Origin: an uncultured Clostridia bacterium
GTDB lineage: Bacteria > Bacillota > Clostridia > Oscillospirales > Ruminococcaceae
Assembly: GCA_945910715.1 (NCBI GenBank)
Contig: CAMDZU010000009.1
Span: 1 to 13,126 of the forward strand
Direction of reading: 5' to 3'
Length of the DNA stretch: 13,126 nt
Each line of letters starts with the position of its first letter. The stretch's first letter is position 1. Below are positions 4,194 through 12,630 of this stretch, in pieces. The notes below the pieces were generated by a model, which had not been told where the DNA came from, ran no database searches, and saw only the letters and a program-made list of their open reading frames with translations. Made by a program: the position numbers and the translations under genes.

Positions 4194-4223
4194 TATATAT
4201 TTATTCGTCACAGTTATTGTCAA
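4194..4223 (-). promoter_or_regulatory. Probable sigma-A promoter for the small protein/Amidase_6-like pair
   Basis: On the minus strand a perfect -35 box TTGACA (4223-4218) is followed after 18 nt by TATATA (4199-4194; an ATATAT reading gives 17 nt). The -35 box overlaps the rsmI stop codon. It would start RNA near 4187, leaving a leader of about 95 nt before the ATG at 4094. This is the only place in the minus-strand run with enough room for an internal promoter. Confidence 0.6.
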
Positions 4224-5050
4224 CTTAACAGCTCTTTATATATTTCCGACTTGGAAAACCTTGTTTTAGCGGCAATTTCCTTGCAGGCGTCGCTTGCCTT
4301 TCTGCCCTCCTCAACAAGCTTTTTTGCCATTTCCGCCGCTTCTCCAAGGGTTATTTCCGCCTTTGCGGTTTCCTCCTCGTAAGGCGCTCCCTCCACAATA
4401 AGCACATATTCTCCCCTGGGGCTTTCCGTTTCGTACTTCCTTATCATGTCGCTTATTGTGCCTCTGATTATTTCCTCGTGCACCTTTGTAAGCTCTCTGC
4501 AAAGGGCGATTTTCCTGTCACCCAGCGCTTCCAGCAAATCGTCAAGGGTGTATTTCAGCTTATGGGGCGCTTCGTAGAAAATCAATGTGCGGTGGTAATT
4601 CTTTATTTCCTCAAGGTGGTCGGAGCGCTGTTTTTTATTCACCGACAAAAAGCCCTCGAAGCTGAAGCGTGAGGTTGACAACCCCGAAACAGCCAGCGCC
4701 GACATTGCCGCCGTCGGGGACGGCACAACCACCGTTTCAATGCCGTGCAAGGCGCACAGTCTTACAAGGTCCTCTCCCGGGTCTGAAATACAGGGCATAC
4801 CTGCGTCGGTGCAGATTGCGCAGCTTTCCCCCTCCATTATCCTTGCGATTATTTCCTCGCCCTTGCTCCTTATATTATGCTCATGGTAGGAAATCATAGG
4901 CTTCTGTATTCCGAAATGGGTCAGCAGCTTCATTGTCACCCTTGTGTCCTCGGCGGCGATAAAATCCACGCTTTTCAGGGTTTCAACCGCTCTGGGACTG
5001 AAATCGGACAGGTTTCCTATGGGCGTGCCCACCACATAAAGTTTACTCAT
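4220..5050 (-). CDS. rsmI: 16S rRNA (cytidine1402-2'-O)-methyltransferase RsmI
   Basis: A 276-residue member of the tetrapyrrole methylase fold, close to the usual family length. Diagnostic motifs are VGTPIGNLSDFSPRA near the start (residues 7-21), AEDTR at 33-37, CTDAGMPCISDPG at 80-92, EGFL near 132, LIFYEAPHKL at 156-165, LCRELTK at 183-189 and PRGEYVLIVEG at 211-221. These are the family's S-adenosylmethionine and substrate surfaces. In characterised bacteria RsmI methylates the ribose of C1402 in 16S rRNA, which tunes decoding at the P site. Its ATG overlaps the end of the upstream methyltransferase gene by 8 nt, a translationally coupled arrangement like the yabB...yabC order in Bacillus. 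Confidence 0.95.
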   Translation of the reverse strand: MSKLYVVGTPIGNLSDFSPRAVETLKSVDFIAAEDTRVTMKLLTHFGIQKPMISYHEHNIRSKGEEIIARIMEGESCAICTDAGMPCISDPGEDLVRLCALHGIETVVVPSPTAAMSALAVSGLSTSRFSFEGFLSVNKKQRSDHLEEIKNYHRTLIFYEAPHKLKYTLDDLLEALGDRKIALCRELTKVHEEIIRGTISDMIRKYETESPRGEYVLIVEGAPYEEETAKAEITLGEAAEMAKKLVEEGRKASDACKEIAAKTRFSKSEIYKELLS

Positions 5051-5741
5051 AGGCCGATAAAAGCTCCTTTGTATATTCGTTTCCGTTTCTCATATTCAGG
5101 GGCTTTGTAATTTCAAGCCCCGCCTTGCCGCCCTTTTTGCCGCTTATCAGCGCAAGCCACGGCTTTTCCCCCTCCTTATTCTGCACAAGGGTAATAACCT
5201 TAGGCTCAATGCGGTATTTTCTCATGGTGCATATCACGTCCGCAAGCCTTTCGGGAATATGGCACATTTTCAGCGTGCCGCCGTATTTCAGCAGATAATC
5301 CGCCGCCTTAACCACGTCGTCAAGACTGCACAAAAGCTCGTGCCTTGCAACTGCCTGCGCCCTTGAAAGCCGCTCCAGTCCTGCTTTCGGCAGATAATAG
5401 GGGGGATTTACCGTTACCATATCCACCGATTCACGGGGAATTGTCAGCGCCTTAAGGTCGCAGAGCACAGGCTCTATTATTTCATCAAGTCCGTTCTCCC
5501 CTGCGGAAATTTTCAGCAGCTCAATAGCCTCCTCCTGTATATCCACGGCGTAGATTTTCTTCGGCGGCTCTTTCTTGCAGAAAAGCAAGGGGATAATTCC
5601 GCAGCCTGTGCACAAATCGCAGACTGTGTCCTTTCTTTTCGGCTTTGCAAAGCCTGCAAGGAGAAATGCGTCCGTGCCGAAACGGTGGTCGGCGCTTACG
5701 GTTATACTAAGGTCCGATAATGCAAATTTCTCTGTTTCCAT
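5043..5741 (-). CDS. TrmN6/YabB-type N6-adenine tRNA methyltransferase
   Basis: A 232-residue Rossmann-fold methyltransferase. DLCTGCGIIPLLF (42-54) is the S-adenosylmethionine glycine loop, AVDIQEEA (65-72) ends in the acidic ribose-binding strand, and VNPPYY (111-116) is the NPPY catalytic motif of N6-adenine methyltransferases. The N-terminal ADHRFGTDAFLLAGF segment is typical of the family that includes E. coli TrmN6 (YfiC), which methylates A37 of tRNA1Val, and Bacillus YabB. The start at 5741 has GGTGGG upstream and lies one base after the trkH stop. Position before rsmI supports the YabB assignment. The exact tRNA substrate cannot be read from sequence. Confidence 0.88.
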   Translation of the reverse strand: METEKFALSDLSITVSADHRFGTDAFLLAGFAKPKRKDTVCDLCTGCGIIPLLFCKKEPPKKIYAVDIQEEAIELLKISAGENGLDEIIEPVLCDLKALTIPRESVDMVTVNPPYYLPKAGLERLSRAQAVARHELLCSLDDVVKAADYLLKYGGTLKMCHIPERLADVICTMRKYRIEPKVITLVQNKEGEKPWLALISGKKGGKAGLEITKPLNMRNGNEYTKELLSAYE

Positions 5742-5742
5742 A

Positions 5743-7092
5743 TCAGCCCACCATAATATTTGCGGCAGGCAGTACCTTTGCCTTGTCGTCTGGCTTGTTC
5801 ATTGTCAGGGACAGTATAATCGAAACAGGGCCTATTCTTCCGATAAACATTGTTATCGCCAGCACTATTTTTGAAAATGGGTCAACCAGCACGGAAACTC
5901 CCGAGGAAAATCCCGTTGTGGAGAAGGAGGACATTACCTCGAAAAGAATGTTCAGTGCGTCAAGCTGGGGATTAAGCACATACACAACAATGAACGAGGA
6001 GGCGATAAATGCCGCCGAAAGGAACAGCACGGTAAGGGTCTTGTAAACAATGTTCTTGGGAACTCTGTGCTTTAAAATTTCCGTATCCTCCTTATTCTTG
6101 ATAACCGACCATGCGGTTGCAATCATAATTGCAAAGGTTGTCACCTTGATACCGCCGCCCGTTGAGCCGGGGCCTACGCCGATAAACATAAGGGTCATTG
6201 TGAACACCTTTGCGAATGCGTTGGCGGTTGGAAGGGGAATTGGCGCAAAGCCTGCCGTTCTTGAGGAAATGCTTGCAAATAAAGAGGTCAGCAGATTTTC
6301 CCCGAAATTCAGCTCTCCGAAAAGGTGAGGATTAAGCTTTTCAATAAGGAAATATCCAACAAAGCCCACTGCAATAAGTATTCCCGATACGCTGAGCACT
6401 ACCTTTGAGTGGAAATGGAGCTTCCTTGTTTTCTTCAAGTTAGCAAGGTTTTCCCATACCACAAAGCCGATACCGCCCATAAAAATAAGCAAAGCCAATG
6501 TCAGCAGCACAAGGGGATTGTCCACAAGGCTTGCCATTCCCTCAGGTGCGACGCTCATAACGTCAAAGCCTGCGTTGCAGAAAGCGGAAACCGCCATAAA
6601 CATCGCCATAAACACGCCGTAGCCGCCGAATTTGGGGATAAAGTCAATTGACAGCAGCAAAGCTCCTGCGGTTTCGATTACAAGGGAGTAAATGATAATC
6701 CGTATGAAAAGGCGGCGTGTGGTTTCAATGCCGTTTACGGTAACGTCCCCCGTTACCTCGCTTGCCTTTACAAGACCGATTTTCTTGCCCAGCGCAATGT
6801 TGAAAAAGGTAACCAACGTAACAAAGCCAAGACCGCCTACCTGAATAAGCAGCATTATTATCGTCTGTCCGAAATAGGTCCAGTAGGTAAAGGTGTCGTA
6901 AATGGTGATTCCCGTTACGCAGGTAGCGGAGGCGGCGGTGAAAACGCAGTCAACGAAGTTGGAAAACCGCCCCGAATTTGCGCTGAAAGGCAGCCAGAGC
7001 AAGGCCGCTCCCACCATAATTATTATGAAGAAGCCAAGAGCAAGGGTTCTTGCAGGCTTCATAGACCTTGTTTTTTTCCTGAGTACAGGCAT
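5743..7092 (-). CDS. TrkH/KtrB-type potassium uptake channel subunit
   Basis: A 449-residue polytopic protein with the four pore repeats of the TrkH/KtrB/HKT superfamily. The filter loops read ATCVTG (56-61), CNAG (172-175), SRTAG (277-281) and STTG (391-394), each giving the pore glycine (G61, G175, G281, G394). The GPGSTGGGIK stretch (307-316) and FIGRIGP with its conserved Arg (R419) are also family marks. It lacks the long N-terminal extension of TrkH, and its length fits KtrB. Such subunits normally need a cytoplasmic RCK partner (KtrA/TrkA) for gating; none is in this window, so it must be elsewhere if present. The start at 7092 has an AAGGAT ribosome site overlapping the upstream stop region, with a 3-nt gap between genes. 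Confidence 0.92.
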   Translation of the reverse strand: MPVLRKKTRSMKPARTLALGFFIIIMVGAALLWLPFSANSGRFSNFVDCVFTAASATCVTGITIYDTFTYWTYFGQTIIMLLIQVGGLGFVTLVTFFNIALGKKIGLVKASEVTGDVTVNGIETTRRLFIRIIIYSLVIETAGALLLSIDFIPKFGGYGVFMAMFMAVSAFCNAGFDVMSVAPEGMASLVDNPLVLLTLALLIFMGGIGFVVWENLANLKKTRKLHFHSKVVLSVSGILIAVGFVGYFLIEKLNPHLFGELNFGENLLTSLFASISSRTAGFAPIPLPTANAFAKVFTMTLMFIGVGPGSTGGGIKVTTFAIMIATAWSVIKNKEDTEILKHRVPKNIVYKTLTVLFLSAAFIASSFIVVYVLNPQLDALNILFEVMSSFSTTGFSSGVSVLVDPFSKIVLAITMFIGRIGPVSIILSLTMNKPDDKAKVLPAANIMVG

Positions 7093-7095
7093 TTC

Positions 7096-8991
7096 TTATC
7101 CTTCCTTTTGTTCTGCGGACGTGTCCGTCTGCAATGTGATAGGCTCACGGCTGTCGATTTTGCCTATGCCCTGTGACTGTGCATAAGCAAGAGCTCGCTC
7201 GCCGTAAGCGTAGATTATATATCCCTCAGCCCGTGCAAGCTCCGTAAGCGGAATATCCTTAGCCGCTCCCTTGAAGCGCAGCAATTGATTGTCGGGCATT
7301 ACTATAATGCAGTTTTCGGGTATTTCCTCCGAATCAAGGGTATAGCGCACAAGAATGTTCTGGTTGAGATACTGGAGCATTGTTGCGGTGTGACGGGCGG
7401 TTTTGTATGCAATAACCGGCGGTGCGTCCACCTGATTGTAAAGGTATTCCGTAACGGCAATGGTTTCAGCGTTTTTCACCCTTGATTCCTCGCTGCAAAG
7501 GGGCAGATAAACTGCGGCAACGCATACCGTGGAATAGGCGGTAATAACCGCAAAAACTCCTGCGCAGAGGAACTTTTTCCATTCCTTTGAGCAGCTTACA
7601 ATAACGATAAGCAGGGCAAGCACGCAGAATGCCGCCGAGGCTGTAAGGCAAAAGGTATCGTGGGTATAAAGAGCGGCAGGAGCTTCTCCTATCCGTAAAG
7701 GGAAAAGTGAAAGTATAGGCGAAAGCCGCACCTTGCCTGCATTAAGTATATCAGGCTCGGTAAAGAGGAAAAATGGGAGATACACAGCACCCAGCGCCGC
7801 CACACCCGAAAGAATATGGGGCAGCCCGATATCGTAAACGAAAAAGAAAATCAGCACGAAAAGGAGAGAAATGGGGATAACTCCGTCAAGGAAACGGCCG
7901 AAAATGGCTGCGTCCTGATATTCTCCGTAGCCCGAATTAAACTTGTAGAAGGTGCCGATAAGCAGGGTAAAGAACACCGTAAGGGCGGAAAAAACCGCAT
8001 ACAGAAGAAAGTCGGTACTGTATTTGCAGGGGGTTTTTCTGACCTTGCTCCTTATGAAAAGGGCGAAAACAATAACGAAAATGCCTATAGCAAGACCGCC
8101 GAAGCCCCATGTGGAGGTAACGAAGTAGTAAAGCTGGCCTACAAGGGTCTTGAAAAAGCGCTGTATTCCGTCCCCCTCAAAGCTTGCGGCAAGGGTTTCG
8201 GCAAAATTTTCGGCTGTGTTTTTAAGCTCCGCTCCCGAGGTCTGCCACACAAGACGCTGTATGAAATATGTAGTTATTCTTTCAAGGACGGCGGTGGCGG
8301 CAATTGCAGGGAAAAAGCTGCTGAAGCAGACGCTTTTCCGCTTGAAGCCTATTCTTGCGACAAGGGCTGTGATTATTACCGCCGCAACAACGCCTGTAAG
8401 CCGCTCGTGAGCCGCAAAGCACACCACGCACAGAAAGCCTGCCAGTATGGACAGCATGTGCTTGAAGCCGTAATGCTTTTCCGCTCCCGCTTTCATTACC
8501 ACCCATATAAGCAGCCACGGGAGAACGATTGAAACCGTTTCGTTCCAGATAAACTTGGTATGGGCGAAATATGTAACATAGCCGCCGCAGATAAGGGCGC
8601 AGAGTATAAGCTGTCGTGGCTTTTTTACCCCAAGCCTTGAAGCGATATTATAGGCAAGCAGCGGCACAAAGCTGACAAGCAGGGAGTTCATCACAAGAAG
8701 CGCCTTGTACTGCACATAGGGGTCGTTTGTCAGCAGCATTATTGGAGTGTAAAGCAGTCCCTGAATATAGCCGTAGAAATATTCCGTTCCCGACATTACT
8801 CCCGTCCAGTTTGCACCGCAGAAAAAGGCTCCCGTTGCGGCAACGCCGAATTCGTTGGGGTCAATGCTTGGCAGGGTCATTTGCAGGGAGAAAAAGGCGT
8901 TTACCGCAAACCATAAAATGAATATAACAAGCATTGCGCCCTTGTTGCCGTATTTGTTGTAGAATTTGTGGAACAAGCTCCTTATATTCAC
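7096..8991 (-). CDS. Large polytopic membrane protein, probable GT-C-fold glycosyltransferase
   Basis: The start is taken as GTG at 8991 (631 residues) because AGGTGA lies just upstream and it follows the preceding stop by 16 nt; a TTG at 9030 would add 13 residues but overlap the upstream gene. There are roughly ten or more hydrophobic helices. The first outer loop carries an acidic pair (D44 and E47 in SIDPNEFG) followed by an aromatic stretch containing YFYGY. This is the layout of GT-C glycosyltransferases (PMT/ArnT-like), which use lipid-linked sugars and act outside the membrane. After the last helices a soluble C-terminal region of about 110 residues follows. No close family is recognised and the substrate is unknown; another polytopic family remains possible. 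Confidence 0.6.
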   Translation of the reverse strand: MNIRSLFHKFYNKYGNKGAMLVIFILWFAVNAFFSLQMTLPSIDPNEFGVAATGAFFCGANWTGVMSGTEYFYGYIQGLLYTPIMLLTNDPYVQYKALLVMNSLLVSFVPLLAYNIASRLGVKKPRQLILCALICGGYVTYFAHTKFIWNETVSIVLPWLLIWVVMKAGAEKHYGFKHMLSILAGFLCVVCFAAHERLTGVVAAVIITALVARIGFKRKSVCFSSFFPAIAATAVLERITTYFIQRLVWQTSGAELKNTAENFAETLAASFEGDGIQRFFKTLVGQLYYFVTSTWGFGGLAIGIFVIVFALFIRSKVRKTPCKYSTDFLLYAVFSALTVFFTLLIGTFYKFNSGYGEYQDAAIFGRFLDGVIPISLLFVLIFFFVYDIGLPHILSGVAALGAVYLPFFLFTEPDILNAGKVRLSPILSLFPLRIGEAPAALYTHDTFCLTASAAFCVLALLIVIVSCSKEWKKFLCAGVFAVITAYSTVCVAAVYLPLCSEESRVKNAETIAVTEYLYNQVDAPPVIAYKTARHTATMLQYLNQNILVRYTLDSEEIPENCIIVMPDNQLLRFKGAAKDIPLTELARAEGYIIYAYGERALAYAQSQGIGKIDSREPITLQTDTSAEQKEG

Positions 8992-9007
8992 ATTATCACC
9001 TGCTTTC

Positions 9008-9961
9008 TTACATAAAGGGTTTAAATACAACCTGAACTACAATATAGGAAATAAGAGCAAGGACGGCAAGCCCCAGCACAGCAAAGCGCATACCGGGATT
9101 TCCTGCTCTGCCAAGAGCCGAGTAATATTCCTCGCTTGTGTCGTCCTCGAAATTCTCACGGATTGACTTGATTTTTTTCACCGCCCAGTTAAGGTACAGC
9201 CTGTCACCGAAAATTCCCATAATAATGGACAGGGCGATTGAAATATAATAGAAAATAGTATTAAGGGCAAGGTAGCCGGGATTTGACAGCATTGCCGAGG
9301 CAACCTCCGAGCCGTAATAGGTGCCCATAATGAACAGCATTTGGGGAATACTGAACAGCACATAGGCAAAGGTAAGCAGAATTGCGGGAATATACATTCT
9401 GCGGTAAAACTGGTATATTGGCGTCAGAAACAGGGCGAAAACGTTGAGGGAGGCTTTCTTTCCCGTTAAAGCCATTGTTTTGAGGAGATTTGCGGTGTAA
9501 GCCCCTTTTCCGGGATAGGGACAAAGAAAGCGGTTAAGCTCCATTTCGCTTACGCCCATAAACTTTTTCTCGGTGTTGCTTTCGCTGTTGCGGTAGAAAT
9601 TGTCCTCCTGCTCCTTAAACCATTGTTCAAGGTTTTCCTCCTGACCGAAAAAGTCGGTATTCTGACTGTGGGTCTGACCTGTGCGGTCGTAGGTGGTGCG
9701 GTTCTCGTCGGTGAAAACAGTGTCGGGACCCTTGTATTCGGGGTCGGGAGGGAAATAGGGGGGAGTGTCGGTTTTCTGCTTGGGGATTTCGGGCTTCCAC
9801 TCAAAGCCTGTGCCGTGCTTGTCGGCGTAGGGGCAATGCCCTAACTTTTCCCAGCATATCCTGTGAACGGGAGCGCCGCAGTCGGGGCAGGTGACAATGT
9901 CCTCATCTCCTGCAAAATATCCCTTGCAGCAGGCGCATCTCTGCTTTAAATATGGATTCAT
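9008..9961 (-). CDS. Prokaryotic RING-finger protein with DUF2628-like membrane domain
   Basis: A 317-residue protein. Residues 9-43 form a zinc-binding RING-like module with C9, C12, C25, C28, H33, C36 and C43, in the context CPDCGAPVHRICWE, which matches the prokaryotic RING family 1 pattern (Prok-RING_1). A low-complexity, Pro/Asp/Gln-rich linker follows (about 50-135). Residues about 136-170 hold a short conserved block reading GVSEMELNRFL and TGKKASLN. Residues about 172-312 contain about four hydrophobic helices with the YRRMY and LYLNWAVKKI features of DUF2628 proteins. The RING probably faces the cytoplasm. Whether it binds partners or has ubiquitin-ligase-like chemistry is unknown; no E1/E2-like gene is present. 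The start has AAAGGAT upstream and lies 17 nt after the RnfE-like stop. Confidence 0.8.
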   Translation of the reverse strand: MNPYLKQRCACCKGYFAGDEDIVTCPDCGAPVHRICWEKLGHCPYADKHGTGFEWKPEIPKQKTDTPPYFPPDPEYKGPDTVFTDENRTTYDRTGQTHSQNTDFFGQEENLEQWFKEQEDNFYRNSESNTEKKFMGVSEMELNRFLCPYPGKGAYTANLLKTMALTGKKASLNVFALFLTPIYQFYRRMYIPAILLTFAYVLFSIPQMLFIMGTYYGSEVASAMLSNPGYLALNTIFYYISIALSIIMGIFGDRLYLNWAVKKIKSIRENFEDDTSEEYYSALGRAGNPGMRFAVLGLAVLALISYIVVQVVFKPFM

Positions 9962-9978: not shown

Positions 9979-10626
9979 TTATTCGCCGTTTATTTTCTCT
10001 ATTTTAGCGGGGTCGGCGATATTGCCCCCACGGCGGTTCTTTCTTGCGTTGTAAAGCGCCCTGCAAAGGCCTGCCAGCACGCCTACAAGAATATATCCGC
10101 CGAAAGCGGTTTCAAGGGCAGGCACGTCAAAGGGCATTTTAATTACAGTATTGCCTATTGCGCCGTTAATAAGCAAATCTCTTATGCTGCCCACAATCAT
10201 GCAGGCAAAATCAAAGCCCAGTATGTACATTATTACGTCGGCTATCATAGGGCGGATCGGTCTTAGGTAAAAGCGGCTTTCCGTTTTGGAGAGAATAAGG
10301 GGGTTTGCAACTAAAATGGGGATATAAACTCCTGCCCAGTCGATTTGCAGCTGATAATAGTAATTCAGAAAGGCAAAGACGGGCATATACACAATTGACG
10401 CTACCAGAGCGTAAATGATAATTCTCACGGTATAGACGATTTTTCTCGGTATAAAGCGGCAGATAAGCACTGTCACAAAGGTGACCGCCGAGAAAATCAT
10501 ACAGATAATCGCCGCCTTTTCAAAGTTGGTTGCAGCGGCAATAACCGGGGCGATAAGCGCGCCGCTCATCAGCACGATATTCTGTTTTATAAGACCGTCC
10601 GAAAGGCTGGCTTGTTTTTTTGACAT
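9979..10626 (-). CDS. RnfE/NqrD-like membrane subunit lacking iron-sulfur cysteines
   Basis: A 215-residue protein with about six hydrophobic helices, matching the RnfA/RnfE/NqrD/NqrE fold. The correspondences are SDGLIKQNIVL for the family's N-terminal GLWKNNPVL-type start, GVYIPILVANPLIL (99-112) for GIFIPLIVTNCIVV, and a late IVGSIRDLLINGAI (144-157) for the VLGSLREIIGNGT segment. In the known family one Cys lies in helix 1 (GLCP) and one after the mid-protein Asn (TNC); together with the sister subunit they hold a membrane [2Fe-2S] cluster. Here these positions are A26 (LIAP) and P109 (ANP). Two other cysteines in the family order are not apparent. The start has an AAGGAT site overlapping the upstream stop, 4 nt away. 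It is likely partnered with the RnfD-like protein, but not a normal redox subunit. Confidence 0.75.
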   Translation of the reverse strand: MSKKQASLSDGLIKQNIVLMSGALIAPVIAAATNFEKAAIICMIFSAVTFVTVLICRFIPRKIVYTVRIIIYALVASIVYMPVFAFLNYYYQLQIDWAGVYIPILVANPLILSKTESRFYLRPIRPMIADVIMYILGFDFACMIVGSIRDLLINGAIGNTVIKMPFDVPALETAFGGYILVGVLAGLCRALYNARKNRRGGNIADPAKIEKINGE

Positions 10627-10630
10627 GGTA

Positions 10631-12001
10631 TTATCCTTTTTTCTTCTTCTTTTTATCGTTTGTTTTTCGTGGCTGCTTTATATGGTAGCTTTCCGCAAGC
10701 CTGGTTTCCATACTTACGGCGTCACGGCTTTTCTCGTGCTTTTCGTGGAAAACCTCCTCGCGGAGAGAGGTCATAAAGCTTTTCTGCTCAGGCTTTTTCT
10801 TTCGGGGTTTTTCCTCGCTTTTCCCCGTAAAGCCCCATTTTCTGCGGTTTATCTTGGTAACCTTGTTGTCAATGGGCGGCATATTATAATTAGTCGGCGG
10901 TACAATAATTTCCATAGTGTCCGTAAGCTTGGGAGTTTTGCCCGACTGTGCGTCGTCCTTTACCTTTTCAAAGGTGCCTATATGGGATTTTACAAAGCGG
11001 AAAGCCTTTTTAGCGTTTTGAATAATTCCCTCGGCAAATCGGTCGATATGGACGGAAATTGCGTTTGCAAGGAGCAATACGAAAACAAAGCCTGCCTCAA
11101 CCTTACCGAAATGTCTGAATACCACCGCAAGGACGCCTATCAGCGTGCCGTAAAGCAGTCTGCCGAAAACAGTTTTGGGTATAGTCTGAGGGTCGCTTGC
11201 AAGGAAAATGAAGCCGAAAAGCAGATAGCCGCTGATAAGCTCCACAATAATTGCGTTGCTGATATTCTCATAGAGGGGGAAAAACAATGACCCTGCGGCA
11301 AAGGCGGCAAGTCCCGAAAGGGTTACGGAAAGGGACAATGACCGTCTGCAAAGGAGCACTAAGCTGCATACCGTCAGCACCAGAACATGGGTTGTGCCGA
11401 TGGGACCCAAAAAGTTGCCCAGAAGTACGTCTGTTGTGGAAAGAGTCTGGGCGGTGCCCATTTTCATAAGGAAGCTTTCAAGTCCCGAGGAAAGAGGCGC
11501 AGTTACCGTGCCCCATAATTCAAGCTCCGCTCCTGCCTTTGGATAAAGGAGCATTTTTTCGGGATAGCAGATTACAAGGAATGCAAGGGAAACGCAGGCA
11601 GGATTGAAAATGTAGTTGTCCTTGCCGCCGAAAATGTGCTTGACGCCCATTGCCAGCGCCGCTCCGAAAACAACAAGCCCGTAGTCAATGCTTGCAGGCA
11701 TCATCAGCGCAATGCAGAAGCCTGTGGCAAAGGTGGATAAATCCTTGGGGTTGTAGGTCTTGCGGCTCAGCCTGCAGCAGATATAATCGGAGAGCATACA
11801 GAAGGCGATTGAAACCGCTACTATAATAATTGCTCTTACGCCGCTTTTCCACACCGCCATTGCGGTAAGTGCGGCAAAGCAGATAAGCTGATCCATATAA
11901 ATCTGTTTTGGCTTTTTCGGAGGCATTTTTTCCCTGTAAAAGCCTTTGGGCTTACGTTTTTTAACGTCTGTATCAACGGTTAAAACCTGAGTTTCGGACA
12001 T
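10631..12001 (-). CDS. RnfD/NqrB-like membrane protein without the flavin threonine, long basic tail
   Basis: Start ATG at 12001 (456 residues) with AGAAAGG 7 nt upstream; an upstream TTG at 12058 lies inside the divergent gene and is unlikely. The membrane part (about 35-320) carries family marks: GVKHIFGG followed by FNPA (119-135), LLGNFLGPIG (193-202) and SDPQTIP (269-275), matching the FMATDP segment. RnfD/NqrB normally bind FMN covalently to the Thr of an S/D-G-A-T motif just before the LLG stretch. The best match here is SSGLE (171-175), with Glu (E175) in that place, so the flavin bond should be impossible. Residues about 322-456 are a soluble, Lys/Arg-rich tail ending in a lysine run, absent from ordinary RnfD. 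It is first in the minus-strand run. Confidence 0.75.
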   Translation of the reverse strand: MSETQVLTVDTDVKKRKPKGFYREKMPPKKPKQIYMDQLICFAALTAMAVWKSGVRAIIIVAVSIAFCMLSDYICCRLSRKTYNPKDLSTFATGFCIALMMPASIDYGLVVFGAALAMGVKHIFGGKDNYIFNPACVSLAFLVICYPEKMLLYPKAGAELELWGTVTAPLSSGLESFLMKMGTAQTLSTTDVLLGNFLGPIGTTHVLVLTVCSLVLLCRRSLSLSVTLSGLAAFAAGSLFFPLYENISNAIIVELISGYLLFGFIFLASDPQTIPKTVFGRLLYGTLIGVLAVVFRHFGKVEAGFVFVLLLANAISVHIDRFAEGIIQNAKKAFRFVKSHIGTFEKVKDDAQSGKTPKLTDTMEIIVPPTNYNMPPIDNKVTKINRRKWGFTGKSEEKPRKKKPEQKSFMTSLREEVFHEKHEKSRDAVSMETRLAESYHIKQPRKTNDKKKKKKG

Positions 12002-12006
12002 ATAAT
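12001..12006 (+). promoter_or_regulatory. Possible -10 box for mecA
   Basis: TATAAT lies on the start codon of the divergent RnfD-like gene, placing a start near 12013, just ahead of the mecA ribosome site. The matching -35 region (about 11977-11983) is poor, so this is only a candidate. Confidence 0.35.
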
Positions 12007-12021
12007 AACCTTTCTGCAAAT

Positions 12022-12030
12022 AAGGAGGTG
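12022..12030 (+). promoter_or_regulatory. Strong ribosome binding site of mecA
   Basis: AAGGAGGTG, a perfect extended Shine-Dalgarno match, ends 6 nt before the ATG at 12037 and fixes that start. The divergent gene's own site (AGAAAGG on the minus strand) is at 12015-12009, so the 35-bp gap is filled by the two ribosome sites. Confidence 0.85.
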
Positions 12031-12036
12031 CTTTGA

Positions 12037-12630
12037 ATGAAAATTGACGTGCTGTCAAACAGCACCGTTAAAATAACCCTTTCGGGAGGCGATATGAAGG
12101 AATACGACCTGTGTTACGAAAACCTTTCACGGAAAAGCCCCGACACCGGAAGGCTGCTTGGGGAGGTGCTGAAGGCGGTAAGCCTTGAAAGCGACATTTT
12201 CTTTGACGCCAACGCAGACCGCTTGTTTATCGAAGCCTTTCCCCGCAGCGACGGAGGGTGTATGCTTTACATTTCTAGCCTTGAAGAGGAGGAAAAGCCC
12301 TCAAAGCCAAAGCGGAGCAAAGCCGCCGAAAAGGTCTGTCCTCTGCTTATCTGCCTTGTTGACGGGGTGGAAAGTCTTGGGGGACTTTGCCGCAGTCTGT
12401 GCAGCTTAAAGGAGCGGAATGGAATTTGTTTCAGCTCCTCCGTTTACGGCGACGGCGGCTCATACTGGCTCACCGTGGAGGCCGAAAGTAATACGGCAAG
12501 GCTGGAGGCTGTTATGCGTGAATACGGCAATGTGTATTCCGACCGCCTTTCTGCGGCGGCGCTTTCCGAGCATTGCTCCGAAATAGCCTGCGGCAACGGG
12601 GCGGAGATTATCGCCGATAGTATCGGTTAG
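12037..12630 (+). CDS. mecA: MecA-family adaptor protein
   Basis: A 197-residue protein; B. subtilis MecA is 218. The N-terminal domain (1-80) matches MecA closely: MKIDVLSNSTVKITLSGGDM, EYDLCYENL, a GRLLGEVLKAV helix, FIEAFPRSDGGCMLYIS. An acidic and basic linker (about 81-99) follows, then the C-terminal domain (100-197) with YWLTVEA and a LSEHCSEIA ending like the MecA LxEHGK segment. MecA proteins deliver substrates such as ComK to the ClpCP protease in Bacillus; the C-terminal domain contacts ClpC. Its targets in this organism are unknown. It reads away from the minus-strand run with a 35-bp gap. No clear intrinsic terminator follows the stop directly; the first G/C hairpin lies about 80 bp downstream. 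Confidence 0.88.
   Translation: MKIDVLSNSTVKITLSGGDMKEYDLCYENLSRKSPDTGRLLGEVLKAVSLESDIFFDANADRLFIEAFPRSDGGCMLYISSLEEEEKPSKPKRSKAAEKVCPLLICLVDGVESLGGLCRSLCSLKERNGICFSSSVYGDGGSYWLTVEAESNTARLEAVMREYGNVYSDRLSAAALSEHCSEIACGNGAEIIADSIG

Follow-up and report, generated by a model that had tools for sequence, protein, structure and literature searches.

The window analysed here is a stretch of 13,126 nucleotides (positions 1 to 13,126 of contig CAMDZU010000009.1, GenBank assembly GCA_945910715.1) from an uncultured Clostridia bacterium of the Ruminococcaceae. It is one of the 323 contigs (C9) of a draft genome that totals 1.72 Mb. On its minus strand lie two adjacent genes, with 4 bases between them, that encode homologues of the membrane subunits RnfD/NqrB and RnfE/NqrD. 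We call their products D-star and E-star, and we call an RnfA-like protein encoded on another contig of the same genome A-star. Our subject is this D-E-A set, in which ligands for the covalent flavin and for the membrane iron-sulfur cluster of Rnf are missing. The features of the two window genes are as follows.

10631..12001, minus strand: D-star, RnfD/NqrB homologue of 456 residues counted from ATG, with a membrane domain and a basic cytoplasmic tail
11600..11641, minus strand: D-star motif KHIFGGKDNYIFNP, whose final Asn (Asn152) lies in the riboflavin-ligand column
11477..11479, minus strand: codon of D-star Glu194 (in the numbering of the 475-residue frame), nearly invariant and taken as the MAFFT partner of the Thr that binds flavin mononucleotide (FMN)
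11192..11194, minus strand: D-star Asp289 (in SDPQT), second riboflavin-ligand column
10844..10927, minus strand: conserved cytoplasmic tail motif LTDTMEIIVPPTNYNMPPIDNKVTKINR of D-star, a candidate docking peptide
9979..10626, minus strand: E-star, RnfE/NqrD homologue of 215 residues
10549..10551, minus strand: codon of E-star Ala26, first [2Fe-2S] Cys column
10423..10425, minus strand: E-star Arg68, matching Arg67 of Acetobacterium woodii RnfE
10300..10302, minus strand: codon of E-star Pro109, second [2Fe-2S] Cys column
10279..10287, minus strand: E-star Lys114-Thr-Glu116, with Glu116 matching Glu115 of A. woodii RnfE

The sequence-only reading of this DNA had proposed just such an adjacent pair, and profile searches bear it out. 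PF03116 is the sole Pfam domain in D-star (E 4.3e-58), PF00175 not being found there, and the hhalign comparison with 12 ordinary RnfD proteins of the same order gave a probability of 100 over 292 columns with 23% identity. E-star matches PF02508 (E 2.4e-18), and its hhalign probability against 12 ordinary RnfE proteins of the order is 99.4 over 200 columns. For both proteins the best NCBIfam matches are Rnf/Rsx models, though far under the curated cut-offs. Here, D-star scores 133.3 bits with rnfD (cut-off 207.05; 298.6 for the genome's ordinary copy) and 76.6 bits with nqrB (cut-off 349.9), and E-star scores 49.4 bits with rnfE (cut-off 213.4; 253.7 for the ordinary copy) and 32.6 bits with nqrD (cut-off 244.85). 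The longest D-star frame spans 10631-12058 (TTG start, 475 residues), with the ATG at 12001 being the probable start, judging from an upstream AGAAAGG (Shine-Dalgarno) and the length of the homologues.

Ligand columns of D-star and E-star

According to the cited passages on A. woodii RnfD, Thr156 carries FMN, and Asn123 and Asp249 are riboflavin residues (PMC11889175); for Clostridium tetanomorphum RnfD, they give Asn124, Asp248, and Thr153, together with the cluster cysteines (PMC9588780), and the ligand role of the Asp is found in both sources. We mapped these residues by counting in PDB alignments and by motif, and took the ligand-column counts from MAFFT alignments of the window with 49 related loci. 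In D-star, the column of the FMN Thr, which is invariant in the 12 ordinary RnfD proteins, holds Glu in 47 of 50 rows, with Thr, Asp, and a gap once each. This region is rich in insertions and deletions, the exact partner residue is uncertain, and our claim is limited to the absence of a conserved Thr or Ser. As for the Thr in TVTAPL of D-star, we rejected it as the FMN Thr, which was counted into the ATPL motif, and the D-star Thr is moreover unconserved. That the FMN site is changed, as the sequence-only reading held, was confirmed, but its broader statement that the protein had lost its flavin is borne out for covalent FMN only. In fact, the riboflavin Asn is kept in 50 of 50 rows and the Asp in 49 (with one gap), and 13 of the 14 positions of KHIFGGKDNYIFNP are invariant across 32 aligned D-star proteins, the remaining one nearly so. 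Read from these columns, the loss in D-star is clear for covalent FMN only, with the riboflavin residues retained. KDNY in D-star represents new invariant residues in place of ancestral ones. The tail motif LTDTMEIIVPPTNYNMPPIDNKVTKINR was not seen in the genome's ordinary RnfD; each of the six genomes searched has a single match to it, always at D-star, and none in other proteins.

Both cluster cysteines are present in all 12 ordinary RnfE proteins, while in E-star neither column has a single Cys among 49 rows, in keeping with the earlier observation that both positions are changed. The Cys25 column is occupied by Ala (38), Gly (9), Val (1), and Ser (1), and the Cys108 column by Ser (19), Ala (14), Pro (8), His (7), and Gln (1), with the hhalign profile alignment agreeing on both. 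The ion path described for A. woodii involves Arg67 and Glu115 of RnfE and Glu88, Thr110, Thr111, and Asn112 of RnfA, where Glu115 is a sodium-site residue and Arg67 belongs to an ion-pair network with it, as the cited passages of PMC11889175 have it. In E-star, Glu at the Glu115 column, Arg at the Arg67 column, and Asn107 are each kept in 49 of 49 rows, and Arg113 is replaced by Lys in all 49. Moreover, the charged residues flanking the old cluster motifs of E-star and A-star are invariant, and the new invariant residues include Lys and Arg in E-star and His in A-star. As a separate observation, the E-star frames of many relatives (L009-L025 and others) run to about 300-345 residues versus 215 in the window, with a C-terminal extension that is absent here.

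The conserved slot and its third subunit

The 49 related loci came from a D-star scan of contigs from one genome per species, and are mostly metagenome-assembled genomes labelled Clostridia, Ruminiclostridium, or Oscillospiraceae. Star loci were found through star queries as well as chosen by hand, frequencies are valid within the named sets only, and the genomes are drafts; three locus and genome entries (L051/G034, L013/G011, and L036/G017) look like the same record. All 49 D frames are open, one being cut by the end of its locus. That the pair should recur in other genomes was a check put forward with the sequence-only reading, and E-star indeed follows D-star in 48 of the 48 loci that continue beyond D-star (L053 ends inside it). 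The recurrent order is rpe, a MecA-like gene on the opposite strand, D-star, E-star, A-star, a DUF4015 gene, and yajC, with D found in 49 of the 49 loci, E in 48, A in 47, rpe in 47, DUF4015 in 45, and a yajC-type gene in 40 (93% of the open reading frames (ORFs) of the latter cluster lie on the D-star strand). The slot genes were identified by Pfam on samples, and the MecA-like gene was detected in 42 of 49 loci by tblastn with the window copy, which is located as follows.

12037..12630, plus strand: MecA-like gene (PF05389), divergent neighbour of D-star

This gene is a marker of the ancestral slot and stands outside the complex. The idea of a two-subunit module did not hold up, as the conserved unit is D-star, E-star, and A-star, or C-D-E-A in several other families.

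In the source genome the slot lies in two pieces, with the MecA-like gene, D-star, and E-star on C9, and rpe, A-star, DUF4015, and yajC in a row on contig C169 (L098), rpe coming directly before A-star; the split may be a rearrangement in this lineage or an assembly error. A-star is the fourth PF02508 copy of this genome, and its best NCBIfam match is rnfA (73.6 bits against a cut-off of 229.3, with 242.9 for the genome's ordinary copy), and the divergent set in this genome is therefore D-star, E-star, and A-star. The Cys25 column of A-star has no Cys in 48 rows. Leaving out one A row that is cut, Pro107 is replaced by His in 47 of 47 and Asn112 is kept in 47 of 47. At the four A/E cluster columns the source genome reads Ala, Pro, Asn, and Cys, or one Cys of four, and 0 or 1 of the four cysteines remain in all 46 related loci where both E and A could be aligned.

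Among the ten window ORFs scanned with Pfam, there was no match to RnfA, B, C, G, or ApbE, and none to NqrA, C, or F; RNA families gave no match in the window at gathering scores. Hence the statement that no other Rnf subunit or flavin transferase is nearby stands for the window but not for the genome, where, besides A-star, contig C166 carries ordinary rnfD-G-E-A-B and, at its end, a portion of C, and contig C256 has a partial ApbE match (profile positions 1-182 of 266). The C166 operon, which answers the question raised earlier of an Rnf operon in the same genome, is separate and looks intact: the ATPL Thr and the four cluster cysteines are all in place in its D, E, and A, which pass the NCBIfam cut-offs, its G has FMN_bind, and its B has FeS and Fer4 domains by Pfam. 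As for the relatives, profile annotation of four congener loci (L092, L094, L095, and L096) gave no match to B, C, or G, the G and B profiles being built from one sequence each.

Selection on the star genes was measured as the ratio of nonsynonymous to synonymous substitution rates (dN/dS, Nei-Gojobori) for 49 D, 48 E, and 46 A genes. For the 12 closest pairs of each, which share branches and are not independent, the values were 0.047-0.112 for D, 0.076-0.155 for E, and 0.026-0.091 for A. The closest pairs of all three are under strong purifying selection.

Across 35 congener genomes, where D copies were classed by Pfam score rather than read singly, a low-scoring, D-star-like PF03116 copy occurs in 34 (the exception being G012; in G025 the copy is split in two), an ordinary RnfD in 33 (all but G003 and G034), and both types in 32. 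There are four PF02508 copies in 30 congeners, three in 2, and two in 3. RnfC_N was found in 31 of 35 congeners, and in none of G000 (the source genome), G003, G007, G024, and G034. Both G034 (96% complete) and G003 (82%) have the divergent set with no ordinary RnfD found and two weakly scoring PF02508 copies each; ApbE is absent in G003 and G041 and present in G034. A wide spread of D-star across the phylum was rejected, since among 398 genomes the D-star profile at 1e-50 matched the source genome and G058 only.

Close behind E-star on the same strand (window 4220-9961) are genes for a RING-type (PF14446) membrane protein, a 644-residue protein with no Pfam match, TrkH, a methyltransferase, and a TP_methylase that we take to be RsmI-like, and in the window D-star and E-star may precede this unrelated operon. 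We rejected the RING protein, the 644-residue membrane protein, and TrkH as partners, none of the three having been found in the 49 related loci, and the RING matches of relatives sit away from D-star. Farther off, at 73-2652, an EAL-domain protein (PF00563, 1096-2652) follows two smaller genes whose products resemble receiver or GGDEF domains by eye; together they may form a cyclic diguanylate (c-di-GMP) signalling cluster.

Graded forms across the order and known systems

Further loci of the order were chosen by hand from search matches and annotated with our own profiles; 19 of them came from a star-D search of 295 order genomes, in which ordinary and star copies are mixed (L118 was not used). 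Within one slot, flanked by rpe and the MecA-like gene before and DUF4015 after, three operon forms occur, namely C-D-G-E-A-B, C-D-E-A, and D-E-A. Ordinary rnf operons stand at these markers in L137 (MecA-like before, DUF4015 after) and L126 (rpe before, DUF4015 after), with DUF4015 following in L106, L114, L125, and L130 and a MecA-like gene preceding in L107 and L135; profile scores are 34-76 for the MecA-like and DUF4015 markers and 139 for rpe, and Pfam confirms those of L137 and the rpe of L126. C-D-E-A with at least one slot marker and no detectable B or G is seen in 14 loci (L087, L088, L089, L093, L099-L104, L108, L111, L112, and L115; L088 is cut before A), and D-E-A alone in L109, L110, L117, and L090, where the E frame is interrupted. 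Of the fetched loci, 43 carry E as well as A. In this count, which excludes C166 (four of four cysteines, with B), all four cluster cysteines are present in 23 of 25 loci with B, and 0 or 1 in 17 of 18 without. In other families, some loci keep the riboflavin residues of D and others have lost them; Asn and Asp are both kept in 14 of the 19 loci from elsewhere in the order that have neither B nor G (L113, which is cut ahead of E and A, was not counted). Two CxxCxxCxxxC motifs are found in all 21 C proteins examined, while the glycine-rich FMN/NAD loop, judged by eye, is kept in 5 of 5 ordinary and lost in 16 of 16 non-ordinary ones.

Several of these loci are of note in their own right. In L087, L099-L104, and others, an RnfC-like protein that keeps the two four-Cys motifs and has lost the FMN/NAD loop lies beside E and A that do not have the full set of cluster cysteines. 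L116 (G161:C43, 5402-9961) reads C-D-x-E-A-B, where x is G-like by position without a Pfam match, one of four cluster cysteines remains, and the FMN/NAD loop of C is changed; it is perhaps an independent case of a degenerate Rnf. L097 (G053:C9, 6387-9978) is an rnf operon with B and G and Cys at two of four cluster columns, in a genome with a second, ordinary operon (L138).

A D tree of 56 rows, from which the very long L090, L091, L110, and L117 were left out after a first tree, put 26 star rows of five families on one side of a branch with support 100/99. On the other side are 27 ordinary rows (including L097), L116, and two rows of family f7. The f7 C-D-E-A loci (L093 and L115) group with the ordinary rows, though placement with the star group was not rejected (approximately unbiased test, p 0.32). 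The genome's ordinary RnfD is distant from D-star. Judged by this tree, the star family is therefore old within the order and no recent copy of the C166 operon. Synteny suggests an origin in situ, from the rnf operon of the slot itself, a point on which the tree is silent.

Among described systems, Rnf (RnfABCDGE, ferredoxin:NAD+ oxidoreductase) has homologous membrane domains and the same D-E-A order, and the ordinary rnf operons of some related families share the slot markers. The star unit differs from it in being without B, C, and G, without the FMN Thr, and with at most one of four [2Fe-2S] cysteines, as well as in its rewired ion-path residues and its new conserved D-star tail. The Na+-NQR subunits NqrB, NqrD, and NqrE belong to the same PF03116 and PF02508 families, but similarity is lower than to the Rnf models, and the same ligands are missing in the star proteins. 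The nearest described departure from Rnf is a two-subunit NQR/RNF-like system with a different partner set. The cited passages describe it as an RnfG-like flavoprotein and an RnfD-like protein fused to the NAD-binding domain PF00175 (PMC8238504, PMC10979944), the D-like subunit being without the flavinylated Thr and having an apparent non-covalent flavin site (PMC10979944). D-star likewise is RnfD/NqrB-like without that Thr, but the star unit lacks PF00175 and G and has E- and A-type partners instead; FMN_bind was not found among the ten window ORFs, nor was G matched by the single-RnfG profile in the four congener loci. The star complex should not be called an Rnf complex, because the defining cofactor and subunit features fail. 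In the open-licence literature we found no description of a D-E-A or C-D-E-A unit without cluster cysteines.

Function of the star unit

D-star, E-star, and A-star are very probably a redox-disabled, Rnf-derived D-E-A unit under selection, to judge from their sequences. For electrons to cross the membrane in Rnf, B, the A/E cluster, G, and the FMN of D are all required, as stated in the cited passages of PMC12174285, and none of these was found in the star unit. Chance or misalignment at the ligand sites was rejected from the ligand columns and profile comparisons; chance in particular is excluded because Cys is lost in all aligned E-star proteins and Thr in nearly all D-star proteins, and because dN/dS is low. 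The family and its loss of the cluster are thus well supported, and its function is what we infer. Our preference, held tentatively, is for a complex that derives from Rnf, is disabled for redox, and has taken on a new role, perhaps one akin to transport. A change of function is suggested because the D-E-A core, part of the A/E gating, and the riboflavin residues survive, new invariant residues replace old ones, and D-star has its conserved tail motif. The sequence-only reading's repurposed module survives in so far as the fold is kept, the ligands are gone, and repurposing is likely; it fails on the number of subunits and the extent of flavin loss. That ion or solute movement is the function of the unit seems possible, with some doubt, and slightly more doubtful is the fullest form of the proposal, namely that an old Rnf-derived family of this order shed electron transfer entirely and now transports ions or solutes by alternating access, with no redox involved.

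On the transport-like reading, the three proteins would form a membrane complex from the Rnf D-E-A core that is unable to pass electrons in the manner of Rnf, with B and G presumably lost first and then C. A-star and E-star would still pair as an inverted-topology dimer, which in Rnf switches between inward and outward states, and might transport an ion or a small charged solute with no redox reaction to drive it. Here, Arg67, Glu115, and two Asn would be the retained gating residues, and the ion path would be rebuilt by the changes of Pro107 to His, Arg113 to Lys, and the cluster cysteines to small or polar residues. D-star would lie beside A-star and E-star, perhaps with riboflavin still bound in a structural or sensing role, and a cytoplasmic partner could dock on its conserved tail.

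A number of observations weigh against this proposal. The source genome is just 68% complete, and the neighbours rpe, mecA-like, DUF4015, and yajC give no pointer to transport. In A-star, the second cluster Cys (Cys113) is retained in 31 of 47 rows, and, of the RnfA residues in the ion path, Glu88, the third member of the gating network, has become Leu in 48 of 48, Thr110 Val in 47 of 47, and Thr111 Phe in 46 of 47. Other families have often lost Arg67 and Glu115 of E, though some loci keep them, so that the star family as a whole is not characterised by one common ion path. The tie between B and the cluster has exceptions in both directions: despite having B, L097 retains 2 and L116 retains 1 of the four cysteines, and L124, where no B is seen, has all 4 (its contig stops behind A). 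Moreover, the residues at the FMN column of the 19 loci that have neither B nor G are Ser (9), Thr (4), Gly (3), Asn (2), and Phe (1). On this recount we rejected the idea that loss of the FMN Thr tracks loss of B and G in all families, and because Ser or Thr is so often found at this column outside the genus, the loss of a possible flavin acceptor is shown for the window's group only.

The same Ser or Thr (13 of the 19 loci), together with the riboflavin Asn and Asp of D-star, their joint retention in 14 of those 19 loci, and the two CxxCxxCxxxC motifs in all C proteins examined, would suit a residual redox role. D-star would then bind riboflavin and swap electrons with a cytoplasmic iron-sulfur protein (C elsewhere), for instance to sense or feed a redox pool of the membrane, with the trans-membrane half of Rnf gone, and the apparent non-covalent flavin site of the two-subunit system offers a precedent (PMC10979944, in the cited passages). 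Against it stand the loss of the FMN/NAD loop in every non-ordinary C, the absence of C from the window and from L092, L094, L095, and L096, and the five genomes without RnfC_N named above, set beside 31 of 35 congeners with it. We regard this alternative as unlikely, and as fairly unlikely a scaffold that has kept only the fold and offers envelope or secretion proteins, such as the DUF4015 protein or YajC, a platform in the membrane. The scaffold would account for the regular presence of both neighbours (45 and 40 of 49 loci), for a tail motif found nowhere else in six genomes, and for the lack of a redox partner within the unit. However, a DUF4015-type gene also follows ordinary rnf in L106, L114, L125, L126, L130, and L137 (scores 36-75, with L137 confirmed by Pfam), and for that reason it marks the slot and is not specific to the star form; the invariant charges beside the old cluster motifs of E-star and A-star likewise exceed what a passive scaffold needs.

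Two further alternatives fare worse. Star subunits that mix into ordinary Rnf, tuning or blocking it, could explain why ordinary RnfD and D-star occur together in 32 of 35 congeners, but this is improbable given that D-star occurs in G034 and G003, where no ordinary RnfD or RnfC_N and only two weak PF02508 copies were found, and that star and ordinary proteins are very divergent (23% identity). As to a functionless, decaying remnant of an old rnf operon, the graded loss of genes and ligands across families, the split unit of the source genome, and the interrupted E frame of L090 might all be read that way. Yet dN/dS of 0.026-0.155 among the closest pairs, invariant motifs in place of ancestral ones, and D frames open in 49 loci (one cut) make decay highly improbable.

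How electrons and ions are coupled in Rnf is disputed, with the cited passages placing the ion path in RnfA/E and not RnfD (PMC11889175) or in RnfD (PMC9588780). The star family shows which residues persist once redox is removed, and its proteins allow ion movement to be tested apart from electron transfer. If the non-redox transporter proposal were true, the family would be a natural experiment that parts the mechanical from the redox portion of the pump. For genomes of this kind, the gene name 'RnfABCDGE type electron transport complex subunit D' alone is no evidence of respiration.

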